Positions 4,642 to 60,758 of a stretch of DNA of 64,000 bases are shown here, one piece after another. Under the pieces are notes generated by a model. That model made no database searches and was not told the origin of the DNA. It was given only the letters and a program-made list of their open reading frames with translations. Made by a program: the position numbers and the translations under genes. This DNA comes from Ignavibacteria bacterium. Lineage in GTDB: Bacteria; Bacteroidota; Ignavibacteria; Tepidaquicellales; Tepidaquicellaceae. The stretch is taken from NCBI GenBank assembly GCA_036262055.1, contig DATAJP010000001.1, positions 124,001 through 188,000 of the forward strand, in the 5' to 3' direction. Position 1 is the stretch's first letter, and the number at the start of each line of letters is the position of its first letter.

Positions 4642-5024
4642 TTTTTACTCGGGTTTAATTTAACAGTTGATAATTTATAGTTTATTAGTCAGAATTTCAA
4701 GTGCGAAGTATTCAAGTTAAGAAGTTGTGAAATGGGGAAATTGCGAGTTGAGATGCTATTGATATATTCCTCGGTATAAACATTTTGCCGCAAAGACGCA
4801 AAGAACTCAAAAAACGACTTAACCACGAATTTGCACAGATTAGCACAAATTGCACGGATTAAAAATTTGCCACAGAGAGCACAGAGGAAAAACAACTGCC
4901 CACGAATTGCGCGGATGTTCGCGAATTAATTCACGGTTAAAAATATGCAAAGAGGATTCGGGAGGAAAGTGAAAAGGGGTTAGGATACTTTTGTCATTTC
5001 TGCGAAGGCAGGAATCCATAAAAT
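4642..5024. repeat. Intergenic repeat tract (families E, F and A)
   Basis: This 383-bp gap holds no convincing gene. From about 4780 to 4925 it carries degenerate units such as gccgcaaagacgcaaagaa, ccacgaatttgcacagatt and gccacagagagcacagagg, related to tracts at 3748-3865, 40816-40853 and 52749-52880. At 4993-5019 there is a family A palindrome in reverse orientation (tgtcatttctgcgaaggcag...). A short minus-strand reading frame over 4689-4895 is made of this repeat and is not credited. Confidence 0.7.
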
Positions 5025-7100: not shown

Positions 7101-7513
7101 GGCGGTTATGATTTTAACTTTCAGCTATTTAAAGTTAATAAAATTTGAGAATAAATAAATTGTATTTAATTCGTGGGTTGGGTTTTTGAGTTTTTTGTTT
7201 GTAAGAATTTCTCCTTTTGTTTTCTTCCTTGCTTGGATTCCCGCCTGCGCGGGAATGACATAAGGAGGGATTTTGTGTTTTCGTGATTTTGTGTTTAATT
7301 TTTTCTTTGTGATGCTTTGTGCTCTTTATGGCATTTTCTTTTAATTCATGCTAACCTGGATTCCTGCTTTCGCAGGAAAGACAAGACGCTGCCATTTCTT
7401 TACTCCTCTAAAATCGCTATTTTTGTAGTTCACTAACTTAATTCGGTTATTCGTATTTCTCATTCGGATATTCGCATTTATTATCGTTAATTATTAATAA
7501 TTAATTATTTATC
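7101..7513. repeat. Intergenic region with two family A and one family E repeats
   Basis: This 413-bp gap separates divergent genes and should hold both promoters. Family A palindromes lie at 7233-7260 and 7357-7383, both in plus orientation; the second has a base change in the outer arm (gaaagaca). Between them (about 7269-7320) is a family E stretch, ttttgtgttttcgtgatttt and onward. The last 70 bases before asnS contain attcgg/attcg units of no clear meaning. I see no gene and no clear promoter consensus. Confidence 0.65.
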
Positions 7514-8860: not shown

Positions 8861-9042
8861 TTCAAGTGGTGAAGTTGTGAACGATAATATTATAAAGTTA
8901 CACGAAGTTCACGAAGAATTCACGAAAAACACAAAGTAAAAAAACGTTTCTAAAATTTCGTGCATTTTGTGTATACTTCAAAAACTTCGTGTCGAGAGAA
9001 TAATTGTTCATTGCACATTGCTAATTGCACATTGAATAGAGT
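8861..9042. repeat. Family E inverted-repeat element
   Basis: The gap after asnS holds cacgaagttcacgaag and acacaaagtaaaa units, with a perfect 10-bp inverted match between 8900-8909 (acacgaagtt) and 8983-8992 (aacttcgtgt). The arms match only partly beyond that. It resembles the cacaaa/tttgtg repeats that enclose the GxxExxY gene near 58 kb, but no gene lies inside. A short direct repeat (ttgcacattg, aattgcacattg) follows at about 9011-9034. Confidence 0.6.
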
Positions 9043-36267: not shown

Positions 36268-36295
36268 TGGGATTCCCGCCTGCGCGGGAATGACT
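36268..36295 (+). repeat. Family A palindrome
   Basis: The copy (tgggattcccgcctgcgcgg, then gaatgact) begins one base after the Sua5 stop. It ends 12 bases before the likely start of the next gene. Its gaatgac end supplies an in-frame ATG (36290) that could serve as an alternative start. Confidence 0.8.
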
Positions 36296-37535: not shown

Positions 37536-37723
37536 AGGGGTAACACACCCCGTCAACTTCGTTGACACCCCTCTCGAGAGAGGATTCTATTTGTCATTCC
37601 CGCGAAGGCGGGAATCTAGTCCAGATGATACTTAATTTAAAAAATTTTATAATCTGTCCTGAATATAAAATAATTGGTTCTTGAATAATATTCGTTTGGA
37701 TTCCCGCCTGCGCGGGAATGACA
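37536..37723. repeat. Repeat cluster: family B and two family A copies
   Basis: The intergenic gap is almost all repeats. At 37536-37583 a family B element (acacaccccgtcaacttcgt and on) contains hairpins gtcaac-ttc-gttgac and cctctc-gagagagg. At 37592-37617 a family A copy lies in reverse orientation. At 37696-37723 another lies in forward orientation, 14 bases before the vWA gene start. Confidence 0.8.
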
Positions 37724-40627: not shown

Positions 40628-40853
40628 TGTCATTCCGTGCTTGACACGGAATCTAGGCTAGATGTTTCTAGAATCTTGATACAGTTGTTTAATATAAAAT
40701 AATAGAGGAGTTACTTCAGAAAAAATATTTGAGTGATATGCTGACTAACTTTTGAATCATTTTTGCCTGGATTCCAGCCTTCGCTGGAATGACATTAGTG
40801 GAGTTTTATAAAATTAATCTGTGATAATTTGTGTTAATTCGTGGTAAGGTTTT
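40628..40853. repeat. Family A variant, family A copy and family F tract
   Basis: At 40628-40655 is a family A-like element with changed stem and loop (tgtcattccgtgcttgacac...). At 40767-40794 is a regular copy in plus orientation with an attccagc/gctggaat stem. At about 40816-40853 a family F tract reads ctgtgataatttgtgttaat and onward. The bases between 40656 and 40766 show no gene or motif. Confidence 0.7.
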
Positions 40854-52748: not shown

Positions 52749-52907
52749 TTTTGCCACGAAGAGCACAAAGAAGCACAAAGAAAAATTTCTTAACACAAAA
52801 ATACGAAAGCACAAAAACACAAAGAAAAGATTTAAAAAATCTGTGCTAATTTGTGTTAATCTGTGGTTAGTTTTTTAATTTATTAAGATAATTCGTAGTT
52901 AAAAAAA
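52749..52907. repeat. Family E and F repeat tract between livM and livG
   Basis: The stretch cacgaagagcacaaagaagc and then aacacaaaaatacgaaagca (family E) is followed by ctgtgctaatttgtgttaat ctgtgg (family F). These are close to the units around the GxxExxY gene and at 40816-40853. No gene is present. The livG promoter, if any, would be in the last 40 bases. Confidence 0.65.
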
Positions 52908-53672
52908 ATGTCTGATAAGATTCTTGAAATAAAAGATGTTACGATGCGTTTCGGCGGACTAACCTGTGTGGATAAATTGAACACACACGTCGGTACGAAT
53001 GAACTCATTGGAATGATTGGTCCGAACGGAGCAGGAAAGACTACAGTGTTTAATATTATCACGGGTGTTTATGACCCAACCGAGGGCGATGTATTGTTTG
53101 AAGGGAAAAGTCTTGTTCCTTATAAACCGTATCAGGTATCGGATTTAGGAATAAGCAGGACATTTCAGAACATAAGATTGTTTCCGTCATTGAGTGTGCG
53201 TGATAATGTTAGAGTATCATTTGGCAAGAGCATTAAGAACGGATTTTTTTCCTCCATTACTCAAATGCCGGGATTTACTAAAGAAGAAAAAGAGCTTGAA
53301 GATAAAATAACCGAACTGCTGGAGATGTTTGATTTGCTTCATGATGAAAATGAGCTTGCAACCTCGCTTCCTTATGGTGAACAAAGAAAATTAGAAATTG
53401 TCAGAGCGCTCGGAACGTCTCCGAAACTTTTACTTCTCGATGAACCGGCGGCGGGAATGAACCCTACAGAAAAAATTGATTTAATGAGATTGATTAAAGA
53501 CGTGCAGAGCAAGTTCAATATTTCGATTTTACTAATTGAGCACGACATGAGTGTCGTTATGGGAATTTGTGAAAGAATTTTTGTTCTTGATTACGGAAAA
53601 AAAATCGCAGAAGGTCTGCCGGTTGAAATTCAAAATAATCCGAAAGTAATTGAAGCATATCTAGGTGAATGA
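52908..53672 (+). CDS. livG: Branched-chain amino-acid ABC transporter ATPase LivG
   Basis: The 254-residue ATPase has Walker A (GPNGAGKTT) at about 41-49 and a LivG-specific SRTFQNIRLFPSLSVRDNV. The signature region is SLPYGEQRKLEIVRAL, Walker B LLLLDEPAAGMNP and the H-loop in IEHDMSVVM. LivG pairs with LivF to drive uptake of branched-chain amino acids or related compounds. Its stop lies right at the left inverted repeat of the four-helix-bundle cassette. Confidence 0.95.
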   Translation: MSDKILEIKDVTMRFGGLTCVDKLNTHVGTNELIGMIGPNGAGKTTVFNIITGVYDPTEGDVLFEGKSLVPYKPYQVSDLGISRTFQNIRLFPSLSVRDNVRVSFGKSIKNGFFSSITQMPGFTKEEKELEDKITELLEMFDLLHDENELATSLPYGEQRKLEIVRALGTSPKLLLLDEPAAGMNPTEKIDLMRLIKDVQSKFNISILLIEHDMSVVMGICERIFVLDYGKKIAEGLPVEIQNNPKVIEAYLGE

Positions 53673-53704
53673 TTTCGGATTTGGGATTTTTGATTTCGGA
53701 TTTA
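53671..53704. repeat. Left inverted repeat of four-helix-bundle cassette (family D)
   Basis: The 34-bp arm (gatttcggatttgggatttt, then tgatttcggattta) matches the reverse complement of 54077-54110 at 27 of 34 positions. The two atttcggattt blocks are perfect in both arms. It starts inside the livG stop codon. Confidence 0.8.
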
Positions 53705-53716
53705 AAAACTTAAATA

Positions 53717-54100
53717 ATGACATCGACTGAACTCAAACAAAGAACTAAAAAGTTTGCAATTAGAGTTATTGAGTTTGTAGATAATTTGCCAAAAAGGAAA
53801 AAATTTGATGTTATTGCATATCAAATATTACGTTCTTCAACTTCTATTGGAGCAAATTACCGAGCTGCATGCAGAGCACGCTCGAAAGCAGAATTTCTTG
53901 CTAAATTGGGAATAGTTGAAGAAGAAGCGGATGAAACGATTTATTGGTTAGAATTAATTAAGGAGATATTAGGCAAAAATAATGATAAAATTCAAAATGA
54001 AGAATTGGATTTATTGCTCAAAGAAGCTGATGAATTAACAGCAATATTTACAAAAGCTGCGAAAACTATGAAAATGCAAATCCGAAATGCGAAATCATAA
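53717..54100 (+). CDS. Four-helix-bundle protein (S23/IVP-like)
   Basis: The 127-residue protein has the TIGR02436-type motifs: FAIRVIEFVDNLPKRKKFDV, YQILRSSTSIGANYRAACRA, RSKAEFLAKLGIVEEEADET and YWLELIKEILG. Relatives are encoded in 23S rRNA intervening sequences of spirochaetes, and stand-alone genes like this one are frequent in Bacteroidota. Similar folds (Avd) help diversity-generating retroelements, but no reverse transcriptase is here. The gene interrupts the liv operon in the same direction. Its last codons (QIRNAKS) and stop are part of the right inverted repeat. Function is unknown, likely nucleic-acid binding. Confidence 0.92.
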   Translation: MTSTELKQRTKKFAIRVIEFVDNLPKRKKFDVIAYQILRSSTSIGANYRAACRARSKAEFLAKLGIVEEEADETIYWLELIKEILGKNNDKIQNEELDLLLKEADELTAIFTKAAKTMKMQIRNAKS

Positions 54101-54110
54101 ATCCGAAATT
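54077..54110. repeat. Right inverted repeat of four-helix-bundle cassette (family D)
   Basis: The arm (caaatccgaaatgcgaaatc, then ataaatccgaaatt) is the inverted partner of 53671-53704. It encodes the last eight codons of the gene, including the stop. The livF start lies 38 bases further on. Confidence 0.8.
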
Positions 54111-54147
54111 GGATAGATAAATTAAAACTATAATAATTTATAGCTGA

Positions 54148-54855
54148 ATGCTTAAAATAGAGGGGTTGAGTGTAAATTACGGTGCGATAAAGGCGGTGCG
54201 CGGCATCAATATTGAGGTTAAGGAGAAATCCATTGTTACTCTGATTGGTGCTAACGGTGCCGGAAAGACAACGACTTTACGTACAATTTCAGGATTGATA
54301 AAGCCTGCTTCAGGTAAAATTACTTTTGAAGGGCAGGACATTACGAATATGACTCCAGATAAAATTGTTCAAATGGGAATTTGCCAATCGCCTGAGGGAA
54401 GATTGATTTTCTCGAATCTTACCGTGAAAGAAAATCTTGAGATGGGTGCTTTTACAAGAAAAGACAAAGAGAATATTAAGTATGATTTGGAGTTTGTGTT
54501 TGCATTTTTCCCGAGATTGAAGGAAAGAATTAACCAGCTTGGCGGAACGCTCAGCGGCGGTGAACAGCAGATGCTTGCAATTGCAAGGTCGCTAATGTCG
54601 AAGCCAAAGTTGTTGCTTCTTGATGAACCGTCACTTGGTATAGCTCCTTTGCTTGTGAAGACGATTTTTGAAAAGATTGTTGCCTTGAATAAAACTTCGG
54701 GAATAACAATTCTCCTTGTAGAGCAAAATGCAAATCTTGCATTGCATAATTCAGATTATGGATATGTTCTTGAAACGGGAGAAATAACACTCGAAGGACC
54801 TGCAAAAGAGCTTGCAGAAAATGAAGAGGTAAAAAAAGCTTACCTCGGTAAATAA
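54148..54855 (+). CDS. livF: Branched-chain amino-acid ABC transporter ATPase LivF
   Basis: The 235-residue ATPase has Walker A GANGAGKTT at about 34-42 and the LivF-type GICQSPEGRLIFSNLTVKEN. The signature is LSGGEQQMLAIARSL, and LLLLDEPSLGIAP is Walker B. LVEQNANLALHNSD carries the H-loop position as Gln, which is normal for LivF. It works with LivG and LivM. The aminotransferase that follows 30 bp downstream suggests the imported amino acid is used as an amino donor or carbon source. Confidence 0.95.
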   Translation: MLKIEGLSVNYGAIKAVRGINIEVKEKSIVTLIGANGAGKTTTLRTISGLIKPASGKITFEGQDITNMTPDKIVQMGICQSPEGRLIFSNLTVKENLEMGAFTRKDKENIKYDLEFVFAFFPRLKERINQLGGTLSGGEQQMLAIARSLMSKPKLLLLDEPSLGIAPLLVKTIFEKIVALNKTSGITILLVEQNANLALHNSDYGYVLETGEITLEGPAKELAENEEVKKAYLGK

Positions 54856-54885
54856 TTTTACAAACCTGATAAACTTTAAAACTAT

Positions 54886-56040
54886 ATGAGATTAGCAAAC
54901 CGTATGAACAAGCTTGGCACCGAGACGGCGTTTGAGGTGCTTGCAAAAGCTAAGAAGTTAGAAGCTGAAGGAAAAAACATTATTCACCTGGAAATTGGTC
55001 AGCCGGATTTTCCGACACCTGATAATATCTGTGATGCCGCAATTAAAGCAATCGAAAACGGCGAGCATGGATATACTCCTTCTGCAGGTATAGGTGAATT
55101 ACGGGAATCCATTGCGAGATATATAAGCGGTACAAGAAATATCGATGTAAGTCCTGATGAAGTTGTGTTCACTCCGGGTGCTAAGCCGATTATGTTTTAT
55201 ACAATGCTTGCATTGATTGATGAAGGTGATGAAGTTATTTATCCTAATCCGGGATTTCCGATTTATGAATCTATGATTAAGTATGTCGGAGGAACTGCAG
55301 TGCCTCTGCGTTTGAGAGAAGAGATGAATTTTTCTTTTAATGTAGATGACCTTACAAAATTAATTACCAAAAAAACCAAGCTTATAGTTTTAAACACTCC
55401 GCAGAATCCGACAGGCGGTATTGTTCCGAAAGAAACAATTTTGAAAGTTGCTGATGCAATTAAAAATACAGACATAATGGTTTTGAGTGATGAAATTTAC
55501 AGCAGGTTGATTTTCAACGGAGAGCATTTCAGCATTGCATCAATTCCGGGATTCAAAGACAGGACAATTATACTCGACGGATTTTCAAAAACGTATGCAA
55601 TGACCGGCTGGAGAGCAGGGTATGGAGTTATGAACAAAGAGCTTGCGGAACAATTTTCAAAATTAATGACTAACAGCAACTCATGCGTGAATCTTCCTAC
55701 ACAGCGCGCTTGCATTGAAGCATACGAAGGTCCGCAGGATGCAGTTGAAGTTATGAAAGATGAATTCATTGCAAGAAGGGATATCATCGTTGAAGGTTTG
55801 AATTCAATAAAAGGTTTTAAATGCAACATTCCTGACGGAGCGTTTTATGCTTTCCCGAACATCACAGGAACAGGATACAAGTCACGTGAACTCACCGACC
55901 ATTTATTATACAATGCAGGGGTCGCAGCGTTATCAGGAACTGCATTTGGTGAATTCGGAGAAGGATATTTAAGATTTTCTTATGCAAACTCACGTGAAAA
56001 CATTCGCGAGGCGATTAAGAGAATAAAAGAGGTTTTATAA
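54886..56040 (+). CDS. PLP-dependent class I aminotransferase
   Basis: The protein has 384 residues. Fold type I features are IIHLEIGQPDFPTPDNI, HGYTPSAGIGELRESIA, NTPQNPTGGIVP, DEIYSRLIFNGEH, FSKTYAMTGWRAGY (PLP Lys) and late RFSYANSRENIREAI (substrate Arg). This resembles the AspC/AlaT-like group acting on aspartate, alanine, aromatic or branched-chain amino acids. Placement right after livF favours an amino acid taken up by that transporter. Specificity cannot be read from sequence. Confidence 0.92.
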   Translation: MRLANRMNKLGTETAFEVLAKAKKLEAEGKNIIHLEIGQPDFPTPDNICDAAIKAIENGEHGYTPSAGIGELRESIARYISGTRNIDVSPDEVVFTPGAKPIMFYTMLALIDEGDEVIYPNPGFPIYESMIKYVGGTAVPLRLREEMNFSFNVDDLTKLITKKTKLIVLNTPQNPTGGIVPKETILKVADAIKNTDIMVLSDEIYSRLIFNGEHFSIASIPGFKDRTIILDGFSKTYAMTGWRAGYGVMNKELAEQFSKLMTNSNSCVNLPTQRACIEAYEGPQDAVEVMKDEFIARRDIIVEGLNSIKGFKCNIPDGAFYAFPNITGTGYKSRELTDHLLYNAGVAALSGTAFGEFGEGYLRFSYANSRENIREAIKRIKEVL

Positions 56041-56052
56041 TCATATCATTTT

Positions 56053-56080
56053 GTAGAGACGCAAAATTTTGCGTCTCTAC
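56053..56080. repeat. Perfect 28-bp palindrome
   Basis: The sequence gtagagacgcaaaa is followed at once by its exact reverse complement, giving a hairpin with no mismatches. It is followed by ttactttcc and lies 12 bases after the aminotransferase stop, so it may end transcription. Similar gtagagacgc...gcgtctctac palindromes are known from cyanobacterial and other genomes. Confidence 0.85.
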
Positions 56081-56175
56081 TTACTTTCCAAATTAAAATT
56101 TCTTCCAAACAATTACGTTTATAAATACATTAAATAAATGTAATTTCTTATTGATTCTCATAATTTATTGAACAT

Positions 56176-57786
56176 TTGAAGACTGATTTTCTTATAATCG
56201 GGAGCGGAATTGCAGGTTTATCGCTTGCGCTGAAACTAAGCAAACTCGGCAAAGTTGTAATTGTTACGAAAAAGCAAAAGGCGGAATCGAATACGAATTA
56301 TGCGCAGGGTGGAATTGCAGCGGTGCTTTCAGAGGACGATGATTTTGCTTTGCACATAAAAGATACACTTGAGTGCGGGGCGGGGCTTTGTGATTTGCAA
56401 GCGGTCAAAAAAATTGTGACAGAAGGTCCCGGAAAAATTGCTGAGCTTGTCGACATCGGCGTTGAGTTCACAAAAAAAGGCGGCGAGCTTGAGCTTGGAA
56501 GAGAAGGGGGACATTCAAAAAACAGGATTGTCCACTCAAAGGATTTGACGGGCAAAGAAGTTGAAAGAGCTTTGCTCAAAAAAATTTCCGAAACTCCAAA
56601 CATTGAAATATTTGAATATTATTTTGCGATAGATTTTCTCACGAATAAAAATTTTGTGAATCACGATGATGCAAAGAAAAATAAATGTTACGGTGTTTAT
56701 GTTTTCAATGTTGAGACGAATAAAATAGAAAAAATAATTTCAGGTTGGACAATTATTGCAAGCGGAGGACTTGGGCAGGTATATCAACATACATCTAACC
56801 CACCCATTGCGACGGGTGATGGAATTGCGATGGGATACAGAGCGGGATGTGAAATTGCAAATCTGGAGTTCATTCAGTTTCATCCGACGACTTTGTATGA
56901 ACATCCCGACGTAAAATCGGATTATGTTTTTTTAATTACGGAAGCTGTCCGAGGTGCGGGAGCGATTTTGAGAAACATGACCGGTGAAGATTTTATGAAG
57001 GAGTATGACAGCCGGGGGTCACTTGCACCGAGAGATATTGTTGCAAGAAGCATCGACAACGAAATGAAAAAATCGGGTGATATGTTTGTTTATCTCGATA
57101 TAAATCCGATTGGTTTGGAAAAATTTAAGGAAGAGTTTCCTAATATTTATCAAGTTTGCATTAGCAAAGGAATTGATTTGTCAAACGGGTTGATTCCCGT
57201 TGTTCCGGGAGCGCATTATTCCTGCGGTGGGATTGTAACTGACTTAAACGGAAGGACTAACATAAAAAATCTATATGCATGCGGAGAGGTTGCTATGACG
57301 GGAGTGCATGGGGCAAACCGTTTGGCATCAAACTCGCTTCTTGAAGCAATGGTTTTTGCAAATGCAATCGCTGAAGATTTGAATGAAATTTTCGCGAGCG
57401 GAAAAGGAAAGAAACAGGATGTTCAGGAAGAAATGATTCTTGATTGGGATGATGAAGGCACTGAAAACGCTGAAGAATGGATTTTGCTTTCACATGATAA
57501 AAATGAAATTAAGAACGTAATGAGTGATTATGTCGGTATCGTTAGAAACATTTACCGTCTTGAACGTGCGAAACGAAGAATCGACATGATGAAAGATGAA
57601 ATTTTTGAGTTTTATAAAAAAACAAAGGTGACAGTTGAGCTGTTAGAATTGAGAAATCTTGTGACGGTGGCTTATTTGATTATAAAGTCGGCTATGAAAA
57701 GAAAAGAATCACGCGGGTTGCATTATATGACGGATTATCCTGTAAGAGATAAAAAATTTTTAAAAGATACAGTAATTGTGAAATGA
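56176..57786 (+). CDS. nadB: L-aspartate oxidase
   Basis: The 536-residue flavoenzyme starts at TTG 56176. It has the FAD-binding start FLIIGSGIAGLSLALKLSKL and NTNYAQGGIAAVLSEDDDF. Then come the substrate-site region HSKDLTGKEVERALL, IASGGLGQVYQHTSNP, EFIQFHPTTLY, SRGSLAPRDIVARSID, PVVPGAHYSCGGI and GVHGANRLASNSLLEAM. It oxidises L-aspartate to iminoaspartate for NAD synthesis. nadA and nadC are not adjacent. A GxxExxY cassette begins at once after the stop. Confidence 0.95.
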   Translation: MKTDFLIIGSGIAGLSLALKLSKLGKVVIVTKKQKAESNTNYAQGGIAAVLSEDDDFALHIKDTLECGAGLCDLQAVKKIVTEGPGKIAELVDIGVEFTKKGGELELGREGGHSKNRIVHSKDLTGKEVERALLKKISETPNIEIFEYYFAIDFLTNKNFVNHDDAKKNKCYGVYVFNVETNKIEKIISGWTIIASGGLGQVYQHTSNPPIATGDGIAMGYRAGCEIANLEFIQFHPTTLYEHPDVKSDYVFLITEAVRGAGAILRNMTGEDFMKEYDSRGSLAPRDIVARSIDNEMKKSGDMFVYLDINPIGLEKFKEEFPNIYQVCISKGIDLSNGLIPVVPGAHYSCGGIVTDLNGRTNIKNLYACGEVAMTGVHGANRLASNSLLEAMVFANAIAEDLNEIFASGKGKKQDVQEEMILDWDDEGTENAEEWILLSHDKNEIKNVMSDYVGIVRNIYRLERAKRRIDMMKDEIFEFYKKTKVTVELLELRNLVTVAYLIIKSAMKRKESRGLHYMTDYPVRDKKFLKDTVIVK

Positions 57787-57787
57787 T

Positions 57788-57817
57788 TTTAACACAAAAG
57801 CACTAAAACACAAAATT
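57788..57817. repeat. Left inverted repeat of GxxExxY cassette (family E)
   Basis: The 30-bp arm (tttaacacaaaagcactaaa, then acacaaaatt) matches the reverse complement of 58241-58270 at 27 of 30 positions. It begins one base after the nadB stop and ends 20 bases before the GTG start of the enclosed gene. Confidence 0.8.
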
Positions 57818-57837
57818 ATAAAATCAAAAAATAAACA

Positions 57838-58236
57838 GTGTTCACAGATGAGTATAAAAACGAGTGCAATCTATTATCTAACAAAATAATAGGGCTAGCA
57901 ATTGAAGTGCATAAAGAATTGGGTGCAGGATTGTTGGAAAGCATTTATGAAGAATGCATGTGTTTTGAGTTAAGTAAAGCAGGTATAAAATTTCAAAGAC
58001 AAAATCCTTTGCAAATAAAATATAAAGGAAATTTATTAGATAATGTTTTGAGGACTGATTTAATCATATCGGATAGTGTAGTTGTAGAGATTAAGGCGGT
58101 TGAAAGTTTATCCAATCTTCATAAATCTCAATTAAAAACATATTTAAAATTAACAAATAAGTGGTTGGGTTTATTGGTAAATTTTAATTGTCCATTTTTG
58201 GATAAAGAAAATATTAAAAGAGTGGTGCTTGGTTGA
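57838..58236 (+). CDS. GxxExxY-family protein, PD-(D/E)XK nuclease-like
   Basis: The 132-residue protein starts at GTG 57838. The family motif GLLESIY is at residues 31-37, after IIGLAIEVHKELGAG. A nuclease-like core follows: LRTDLIISDS (Asp74) and VVVEIKAVES (Glu84-Ile-Lys86). The end, LGLLVNFNCPFL, is also typical. Family members are small, widespread in Bacteroidota and of unknown function, with the PD-(D/E)XK fold. The gene lies within 30-bp imperfect inverted repeats, five bases before the right arm. It is unrelated in role to nadB or the peptidase around it. Confidence 0.93.
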   Translation: MFTDEYKNECNLLSNKIIGLAIEVHKELGAGLLESIYEECMCFELSKAGIKFQRQNPLQIKYKGNLLDNVLRTDLIISDSVVVEIKAVESLSNLHKSQLKTYLKLTNKWLGLLVNFNCPFLDKENIKRVVLG

Positions 58237-58240
58237 AAAA

Positions 58241-58270
58241 AGTTTTGTGGTTTAGTGTTTTTGTGTTAAA
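58241..58270. repeat. Right inverted repeat of GxxExxY cassette (family E)
   Basis: The arm (agttttgtggtttagtgttt, then ttgtgttaaa) is the inverted partner of 57788-57817. A third, similar block in direct orientation lies at 58318-58349, within the signal-peptide codons of the peptidase gene. Confidence 0.8.
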
Positions 58271-58298
58271 TTTTTTGAAAAATATTAAATTATATTTT

Positions 58299-60758
58299 AT
58301 GAAAGCAATTTCCCTTAAACTTTTGTGGTTTTGTGGTTTTTGTGTTTGTAATTTTTTATTTAATAGTAATGTCAAGGCGCAGACTGTTCCTGAGCCCGAG
58401 CGAGTGCGGACTTATGACGTTCTGCATTATAACATTAACGTTATTCCCGATATTGCGCAGAAAAAAATTACAGGAACGGTGATAGGGCAGATTGTTCCAT
58501 TAAGCAATAATTTTGATATTCTTGAGCTTGACGCGGTTGCCTTTAAGGTGTTCAGCGTTAAGATTAACGGAGCAGAAGTGAGTAGCTATACAAACACAGG
58601 CAAGAAAATAGAGATAATGCTGGATAAAGTTTATAATACGAACGATACCATTATTTATGAAATTTCTTATGAATGTTTTCCTCAGAGAGGATTTTATTTT
58701 GTTCATCCGACTGAGTTAGACCCTTCGCATCCTTATCAATTCTGGACGCAGGGAGAGGGTGAAGATAACAAACACTGGATTCCGATTTATGATTACCCGA
58801 ATGACAAGTCAACTTCGGAAATTTATGTAACAGTTGACAGAAATTATAAAACCATTTCAAACGGTTATCTGGCTGATTCTGTATTTGTTGAATATACAGG
58901 GAAAAGAATTGACCATTGGGTTATGGATAAGCCCCATGTAAGCTATTTAATAATGCTTGGTGGTGGAGACTATCATATATTTGAAGAAAATTTTGAAAAT
59001 CTGCCGGTTCAATCTTACATAGATCCGAAAAAAATTGCGGACGGTGAATATTCCTTCAGAAGAACTGACGATATGATTGGATTGTTTAATAATAAATTCG
59101 GCGTATGGTATCCGTGGGCAAATTATAAACAAGTAGTAGTAAAAGATTTTACTTATGGAGGAATGGAAAATACAACTGCAACGGTGCTGAACGAACGCGC
59201 ATATTTTGACCAGCATGTCGAAGACCATTATACATCGGAGCCGCTTATTGCGCATGAGCTCGGACATCAATGGTGGGGTGATTTGATTACATGCAAAAAC
59301 TGGAGTGAGCTCTGGCTTAATGAAAGCTTTGCTACATATTCAGATGACTTGTGGAACCTGCACGTGAATGGCAAAGATGAATATGATTACGGCATAATGA
59401 AAAACGGAGATGCGTTTTTCAGAGCTGAGAAAAGATTGGGAAGATACAGCATCTGGGCAGGCAGGGGAAGCGTAACGGCAAACAATTATGATAAAGGAGC
59501 TGTAACATTAAACATGATGCGAGATGTTGTCGGTGATTCGTTATTCTTTATGAGCTTGCAGACATTTTTATTAGACAATGCATTTAAGACTGTTGAGACA
59601 CAGGATTTAGTAAATTCATTTAATAAAATTGCAAGTGCAAGTAATGTAAGAGGGATGAATGATTTCAAATGGATGTTCGACCAATGGATTTGGCAGGCAG
59701 GTTATCCTGAGTTTGATGTTTCTTATACGTATGATGAAAATTTAAGACAGTTAAAATATAAAGTTAAGCAAACTCAAAAAATTGATTCGCTTACTCCTGT
59801 TTTTATGATGCCGTTGAAAATTTTAATTAAGAGCGAATCCGGTGAGCAAATAGAGGAAATTTTTGTGAAAGATGCAGATGAAGAATTTATTTTTACGCTT
59901 GTCGATAGGCCGCAGTATATAGTTTTTAATCATGAAAATACTTATTTGACGAAAACGAATTACAAGCGTTCACATTCCGAGGCATATGAACAGGCGTTAA
60001 AAAATTCTTATGCGATAAACAGGATTATGGCAATAAGAGAGATAAAGAATTTTGAGTATGACAAAATAATTCCTGAGATTATGAACACGGTTCTGCTGAA
60101 CGGCAATTTCTGGGGTGAAAGATATGAAGCTGCAATGACTTTGTCAAAGTTCGATAAAAAGCGTGTGAGAGAAGTTTTGCGAGAAGCATATTTTAAAAAT
60201 GAACACCCTAAAGTTAAGAGGGGAATTATAGAAGCACTTGGAATAATCGGAAACGATGAAGATAAAAATTTCATAAATAATATTCTAAAAGCTGAAGAAG
60301 ATAATTATATTATTGCCGAAGCTTTGAAAGCGGGGTGGAGAATTTATCCGCGAGATGAATATATAAATTTACTTGTTAGCTTTAAAGATACAGAGTCTCA
60401 CAGGCAGGTTGTGAAGAGTGCTGTAATTGATGGGTTGGACTCTCTTAGTAAGGTTAAACCCGATGATAAAATTAAAGCTGCACTTATAAGCATTGCATTT
60501 GGAAAAGACATCGAAGGAAGAGCTCGTGCAAAAGCGGTTGACGTATTAAGATTTTATGCAACTGACCAGGAAGTTAAGTCACTTGCTAAAAAATATCTTG
60601 ATTGGAATTTCAGAGTTATGGAAGAAAGCTTGATTCAGCTTCTCGGAAGAAGTGAAGATAAATCAGTGATAGCGCTTCTGAAAGAACATGATGCTAAAAC
60701 AACAGATGATGCGCTGAAAAAAGAAATTGATAAGGCAATTAAGAAGTTAGAAAAATAG
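58299..60758 (+). CDS. M1-family zinc aminopeptidase, secreted
   Basis: The protein has 819 residues from ATG 58299; the frame extends to 58233 but that part is the cassette's right repeat. The signal peptide (LKLLWFCGFCVCNFLF...VKAQ) is followed by an M1 N-terminal beta domain. The exopeptidase motif is GGMENTTATV, and the zinc site is His319-Glu-Leu-Gly-His323 with Glu342 in LNESFATY. After about residue 590 there are alpha-helical HEAT-like repeats (KIIPEIMNTVLL, RGIIEALGIIGNDEDKN). It trims N-terminal residues from periplasmic peptides. Two family E blocks lie at its 5' end. Confidence 0.95.
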   Translation: MKAISLKLLWFCGFCVCNFLFNSNVKAQTVPEPERVRTYDVLHYNINVIPDIAQKKITGTVIGQIVPLSNNFDILELDAVAFKVFSVKINGAEVSSYTNTGKKIEIMLDKVYNTNDTIIYEISYECFPQRGFYFVHPTELDPSHPYQFWTQGEGEDNKHWIPIYDYPNDKSTSEIYVTVDRNYKTISNGYLADSVFVEYTGKRIDHWVMDKPHVSYLIMLGGGDYHIFEENFENLPVQSYIDPKKIADGEYSFRRTDDMIGLFNNKFGVWYPWANYKQVVVKDFTYGGMENTTATVLNERAYFDQHVEDHYTSEPLIAHELGHQWWGDLITCKNWSELWLNESFATYSDDLWNLHVNGKDEYDYGIMKNGDAFFRAEKRLGRYSIWAGRGSVTANNYDKGAVTLNMMRDVVGDSLFFMSLQTFLLDNAFKTVETQDLVNSFNKIASASNVRGMNDFKWMFDQWIWQAGYPEFDVSYTYDENLRQLKYKVKQTQKIDSLTPVFMMPLKILIKSESGEQIEEIFVKDADEEFIFTLVDRPQYIVFNHENTYLTKTNYKRSHSEAYEQALKNSYAINRIMAIREIKNFEYDKIIPEIMNTVLLNGNFWGERYEAAMTLSKFDKKRVREVLREAYFKNEHPKVKRGIIEALGIIGNDEDKNFINNILKAEEDNYIIAEALKAGWRIYPRDEYINLLVSFKDTESHRQVVKSAVIDGLDSLSKVKPDDKIKAALISIAFGKDIEGRARAKAVDVLRFYATDQEVKSLAKKYLDWNFRVMEESLIQLLGRSEDKSVIALLKEHDAKTTDDALKKEIDKAIKKLEK

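Follow-up and report, generated by a model that had tools for sequence, protein, structure and literature searches.

Between nadB and an M1 peptidase gene of an Ignavibacteria bacterium lies a compact unit in which a single GxxExxY gene is enclosed by inverted arms; the unit was inserted between these neighbours and is of a kind whose decay leaves solo arms, palindromes without the gene, and deletion derivatives in tandem. We give an even chance to its being a small insertion element of the form arm, GxxExxY gene, inverted arm, REPtron-like in design and with a PD-(D/E)XK nuclease in the place of the Y1 transposase. To our knowledge, GxxExxY genes are annotated in many genomes and have been given no role, and much intergenic DNA that lacks an explanation consists of common short repeats such as those of the CTCTGTG, CTTTGCG and GAATT types. 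The link between the two gives the hypothesis that a small nuclease stands behind a large dispersed palindrome population; if true, this would be a new way to move DNA, and a finding on a par with the discovery that RAYTs are the transposases of REPs. Open-access papers, to which the search was confined, so that a preprint or a subscription journal may contain one, gave no description of the gene-plus-arms unit; there, the papers that mention GxxExxY do not deal with its function, searches for GxxExxY function (PF13366, PDDEXK_3, TIGR04256, COG5614) returned no relevant paper and the arm sequences matched chance primers only. The unit looks like a widespread mobile element, apparently undescribed.

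The DNA analysed (the window) is a stretch of 64,000 nucleotides, in which the left arm of the unit occupies positions 57788-57817 on the forward strand (TTTAACACAAAAGCACTAAAACACAAAATT) and the right arm positions 58241-58270 on the reverse strand, reading TTTAACACAAAAACACTAAACCACAAAACT when reverse-complemented. The left arm proper (57788-57815) comprises three units, AACACAAAA-G-CACTAAA-A-CACAAAA, and fits the terminus consensus TTTNAC-CRC; its outer end, TTTAACAC, lies 1 base past the stop codon of nadB (56176-57786). Its inverted copy, the right arm, spans 58243-58270. A sequence-only reading of this DNA had described 30-bp inverted arms around a GxxExxY gene, neighbours nadB and a peptidase, and no transposase, and all of this is borne out: the arms are identical at 27 of 30 positions, the family profiles match, the peptidase is of the M1 type, and the GxxExxY gene is the sole gene between the arms. 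The gene (57838-58236, forward strand, GTG start, 132 aa) starts 20 nt past the left arm, as that reading had it, and leaves 4 nt to the right arm where the reading counted 5. In a repeat search of the window the arm pair lengthens to 41 nt at 80% identity, and the two flanks of the gene reach a local-alignment score of 46, compared with a mean of 16.5 and a maximum of 30 for 627 other 400-bp intervals of the window.

On the far side of the unit, the M1 peptidase more likely starts at the ATG at 58299 than at the TTG at 58233; a start at the latter would place the peptidase gene over part of the cassette. A third arm-like copy (58317-58346, reverse strand; 88% identical to the right arm over 24 nt) lies in the codons of the peptidase's signal peptide (LWFCGFCVCN; window 58299-58370), which it encodes in part, and suggests that element debris was taken into the peptidase coding sequence.

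In relatives from the same family (G003, G017, G009 and G011), nadB and the M1 peptidase are adjacent with a gap of roughly 0-10 nt, as against 512 nt here from the nadB stop to the likely peptidase ATG, so that the unit of about 0.5 kb is an insertion; the cassette view thus passes the check that the sequence-only reading had proposed for the nadB-to-peptidase region of relatives. In another relative (L063; G018 C4) the same gap holds a different gene, for a small, apparently secreted protein, and the gap is therefore open to insertions.

Comparison of loci elsewhere documents both the limits of the element and its decay. Two loci (L110 and L115) encode proteins 83% identical in amino acids within unrelated flanks, and their homology ends exactly at TAACCAC...GTGGTTA: the arms are the ends of the element. 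Two orthologous sites were followed through species of genus g17: some carry the full element, others only its left or only its right arm, others a palindrome without the gene, and some nothing at all. A tandem array at a further locus (L295; G035 C35 14250-16950) holds one intact element and several internally deleted copies, which have lost the interior of the gene and retain both arms and the gene ends, with constant spacers of ~25 bp. Recent tandem duplication is also seen (L055; a near-identical pair in G011, dS 0.04); all near-identical copies observed within a genome were tandem ones, and none had recently transposed to a separate site. Among 67 elements, outer k-mer matches at offsets 0-8 gave no clear excess and hence no target-site duplication, although a short one could be masked by imprecise termini; neither excision nor cleavage was seen. 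In a homing endonuclease element the empty allele carries the recognition site and the occupied allele splits it; here, orthologous empty sites often carry one solo arm, which may be a target or a relic. Several elements were inherited vertically over long times, so movement is slow. Spread by plasmids or phages as the main route was rejected, relatives being present in only 8 of 72,556 plasmid records; no relatives were found in viral contigs and phage records.

These observations bear on a rather improbable alternative, in which the gene mainly benefits the host or is selfish and stable (serving genome maintenance, or acting as a restriction-like nuclease). Its protein would bind the arms to regulate its own gene or to protect itself, and any mobility would be a by-product. 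Strong purifying selection, the long vertical inheritance of some copies, and arms placed tightly around the gene in fixed orientation all agree with it; against it speak features typical of mobile elements, namely insertions at new sites, arrays in tandem, copies with internal deletions, and palindromes dispersed without the gene.

Dispersed copies of the arms are largely without genes. In the genome of the window, the exact pattern of the window arm has 15 matches, against 0 for a reversed control, and at least 10 loci of this arm are gene-less palindromes, their loops 5-44 bp long. To enter this count a palindrome had to have each of its two arms read directly, because many paired +/- matches in genus g17 are solo arms. 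Elsewhere in this genome the window arm thus occurs mostly in palindromes that lack a gene and seldom in gene cassettes, a point on which the sequence-only reading needed correction. In another genome (G056; L324-L343), about 20 or more dispersed, REPIN-like palindromes of ~100 bp are made up of the arms of its single GxxExxY element, with the same 3-unit arm and the AACC end toward the loop, the opposite orientation to that in the element. Across 59 relatives, a generic arm pattern gave 232 matches versus 7 in the control; matches per genome averaged 4.5 where GxxExxY was present versus 1.3 where it was absent (one-sided p 0.026). Gene-less clusters and palindromes of the CRCNRA type, of classes CGCAAAG, CACAGAG and CAGATT and some apparently nested, also occur between genes in the window (4780-4910, 8895-8975, 52750-52870, 40815-40845 and 7270-7295), and elsewhere (L024; G000 C3 883200-884200) a CGCAAAG-type palindrome carries in its loop another palindrome, of the window arm type, which makes a nested insertion.

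The arms themselves follow a degenerate but regular grammar. Each strings together between two and four CRCNRAG or CRCNRATT units, in constant orientation and spaced 8-11 bp apart, with TTTNAC in front and an end reading 5'-TTTNACCRC; the consensus core is circular, because the motif itself was used to find the units, while the TTT.AC lead and the spacing are independent of it. CRCNRAK occurs about 2 times per GxxExxY flank in the correct orientation, versus 0.3 in the background; read in the wrong orientation, or in the flanks of IVP genes (see below), its frequency is close to the background level. Arm types include CACAGAG, CGCAAAG and CACGAATT; both arms agree within a locus and the version varies between loci, and in one orthologous pair (L097/L113) spacer bases are altered on both arms in concert. 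A short stretch like TTTCAAAAAGCGAAAGTCAGGCGG is found inside arms (L103; G029/G030 alignment), as if another small repeat were inserting into them.

Arm type also tracks the protein. On the protein tree, the ATT arm type requires 2 changes (shuffled mean 10.6) and the CAC/CGC type about 16 (31-37 when shuffled), with 0 of 500 shuffles as low, counts whose contrast with the shuffles is inflated by relatedness. Where one genome holds several arm types, separate GxxExxY genes each have their own type, which makes an effect of the host less likely. The arms and the GxxExxY protein belong together across phyla. This association speaks against a further, unlikely alternative, in which some unrelated enzyme mobilises the arms as a REP-like or otherwise mobile repeat, while the GxxExxY gene travels between two of them as a passenger or as captured cargo. 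Such a mover would fit the facts that most arm copies are gene-less, that a few genomes lacking GxxExxY keep arms (G040, G042, G049 and G050), and that the reaction carries no footprint linking it to the nuclease; but the arm motif accompanies one protein family across phyla and follows its tree, IVP genes have different arms, arm counts rise with the number of GxxExxY genes (rho 0.41, p 0.001; 59 relatives), and among the loci compared no other gene was seen with these arms.

The gene-plus-arms design is general. At a common flank-score threshold of 25, inverted arms flank 95 of the 150 GxxExxY loci drawn from the relatives and from a wide range of phyla, versus 9 of 322 control genes (~3%; Fisher p about 1e-48), the control positives including the window element itself. 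A mismatched-pair null proved too strict, because arm types are common to several loci, and interval and gene controls were taken in its place. Among the relatives, 57 of 72 GxxExxY loci from 59 genomes lie above the 99th percentile of the interval background. In named genomes that span many phyla (Bacteroidota, Planctomycetota, Acidobacteriota, Alphaproteobacteria, Armatimonadota, Chloroflexota and others), 38 of 78 usable loci lie above the same percentile and clear arms were not found at about half, the 80 named loci being the best-scoring ones and not a random sample; many of the genomes compared are metagenome assemblies, and the collections hold one genome per species. That two intergenic repeat copies should have come to lie around the gene by coincidence is hardly credible: such repeats are common in this genome, yet the excess over control genes refutes chance. 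The sequence-only reading had proposed a cassette and a search for other GxxExxY genes with the same arms; such genes do lie in inverted arms far above background and empty sites exist in relatives, so much of that proposal stands, while the idea of a single fixed arm sequence does not, the arms being variable and their copies elsewhere mostly gene-less.

The protein encoded between the arms matches TIGR04256 GxxExxY (145 bits against a cut-off of 35, E 1e-42) and PF13366 PDDEXK_3 (141 bits against a cut-off of 22, E 3e-41) in profile searches. The catalytic set E34, D74, E84 and K86 is intact, and in an alignment of 40 homologues D74, E84 and K86 are invariant, E34 is conserved in at least 90%, and there are no conserved cysteine columns. 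A dN/dS of 0.04-0.24 between orthologues implies purifying selection and a maintained function. From a structure model (pLDDT 96.7), the protein is predicted to have a PD-(D/E)XK nuclease fold. The nearest solved fold is that of the Cas4/RecB-like PD-(D/E)XK nucleases (Cas4 SSO0001, 4ic1; E 9e-4), to which a weak Cas4b profile match adds; solved structures searched by sequence gave no significant match, and PADLOC returned a weak Cas4 resemblance only. Unlike Cas4, the 132-aa protein lacks the conserved Fe-S cysteines and has no cas genes nearby.

We infer that the nuclease itself moves DNA, which the sequence-only reading had raised as a possibility. The GxxExxY protein would bind the arrayed CRCNRA units, whose 8-11 bp spacing is about one helical turn, and would nick or resolve the hairpin or cruciform that such inverted arms can form; host replication or repair might then copy to other places the DNA that the arms enclose. 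The full element would thereby serve itself in cis, and the gene-less palindromes would be served in trans. More tentatively, and with greater doubt than belief, we propose that GxxExxY, a stand-alone PD-(D/E)XK nuclease, founds a new, phylum-spanning class of transposable elements. It would recognise CRCNRA arrays, cut hairpin or cruciform ends and mobilise its own gene as well as large numbers of gene-less palindromes, and would need no recombinase of the DDE, HUH or site-specific kind; the IVP four-helix-bundle units would form a second class with this design.

Among known systems, the closest in operation is REPIN/RAYT, in which REP doublets accompany REP-associated tyrosine transposases (PMC3116915). 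The likenesses are one gene within inverted short repeats, many dispersed intergenic gene-less doublets, a repeat type paired with the gene lineage, and tandem clusters. The GxxExxY unit works like REPIN/RAYT and is not a member of it, because no Y1 (HUH) transposase was found: only PDDEXK_3/GxxExxY profiles match, with the PD-(D/E)XK fold, and the arms are arrays of direct 8-11-bp units instead of small palindromes with a short tag. With MITEs and their parent insertion sequences the unit shares short inverted repeats, internal-deletion derivatives and dispersed copies; unlike a DDE insertion sequence or MITE, it has no DDE transposase, and no target-site duplication was found.

The intervening sequences (IVS) of 23S rRNA with an S23/IVP ORF offer a second parallel, one small ORF within terminal inverted repeats (PMC4990558). 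Size (~0.4-0.5 kb), the single small ORF and terminal inverted repeats of about 28 bp are alike; the GxxExxY unit differs in its protein fold and its family-wide arm motif, and it is not an IVS because of its location, between nadB and the M1 peptidase. A very improbable explanation would have it be, like these sequences, a unit acting at the RNA level, with the arm stem cut by RNase III, the insertion harmless, and the DNA spread by rare retro-copying. It can draw on the shared architecture, a 0.4-kb ORF in terminal inverted repeats (PMC4990558), and on the IVP genes that themselves lie in arms here; the units nevertheless lie between genes and not in rRNA, the arms contain mismatches and are rich in A+T, positions 53200-58700 of the window match nothing in Rfam, and the orientation of the arm motif is tied to one DNA nuclease family, which suggests recognition of DNA. 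The insertion element is the preferred reading of the GxxExxY unit. That IVP genes are built along parallel lines has a bearing on how the intervening sequences of rRNA arose, for which there is no explanation so far.

Inverted arms were present at 26 of 32 IVP loci (score above 25), in a vocabulary unlike that of the GxxExxY arms; IVP genes of the relatives share the design. The window holds one such IVP/S23 unit (53672-54109), inserted where two ABC-transporter ATPase-like genes adjoin, and its inverted arms are 32 bp long and of the AAATCCG type: the left arm, ATTTCGGATTTGGGATTTTTGATTTCGGATTT, lies at 53672-53703 on the forward strand, the gene for a four-helix-bundle protein (matching the TIGR02436 / 23S_rRNA_IVP profiles) at 53717-54100 on the forward strand, and the right arm at 54078-54109 on the reverse strand, overlapping the 3' end of the gene. 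Some positives among the control genes are due to other repeats, and the top-scoring window gene is flanked by the frequent GTCATTCCCGC palindrome; copies of this palindrome, GTCATTCCCGC...GCGGGAATC, at window positions 36271-36294 and 37590-37620 surround a gene without a Pfam match.
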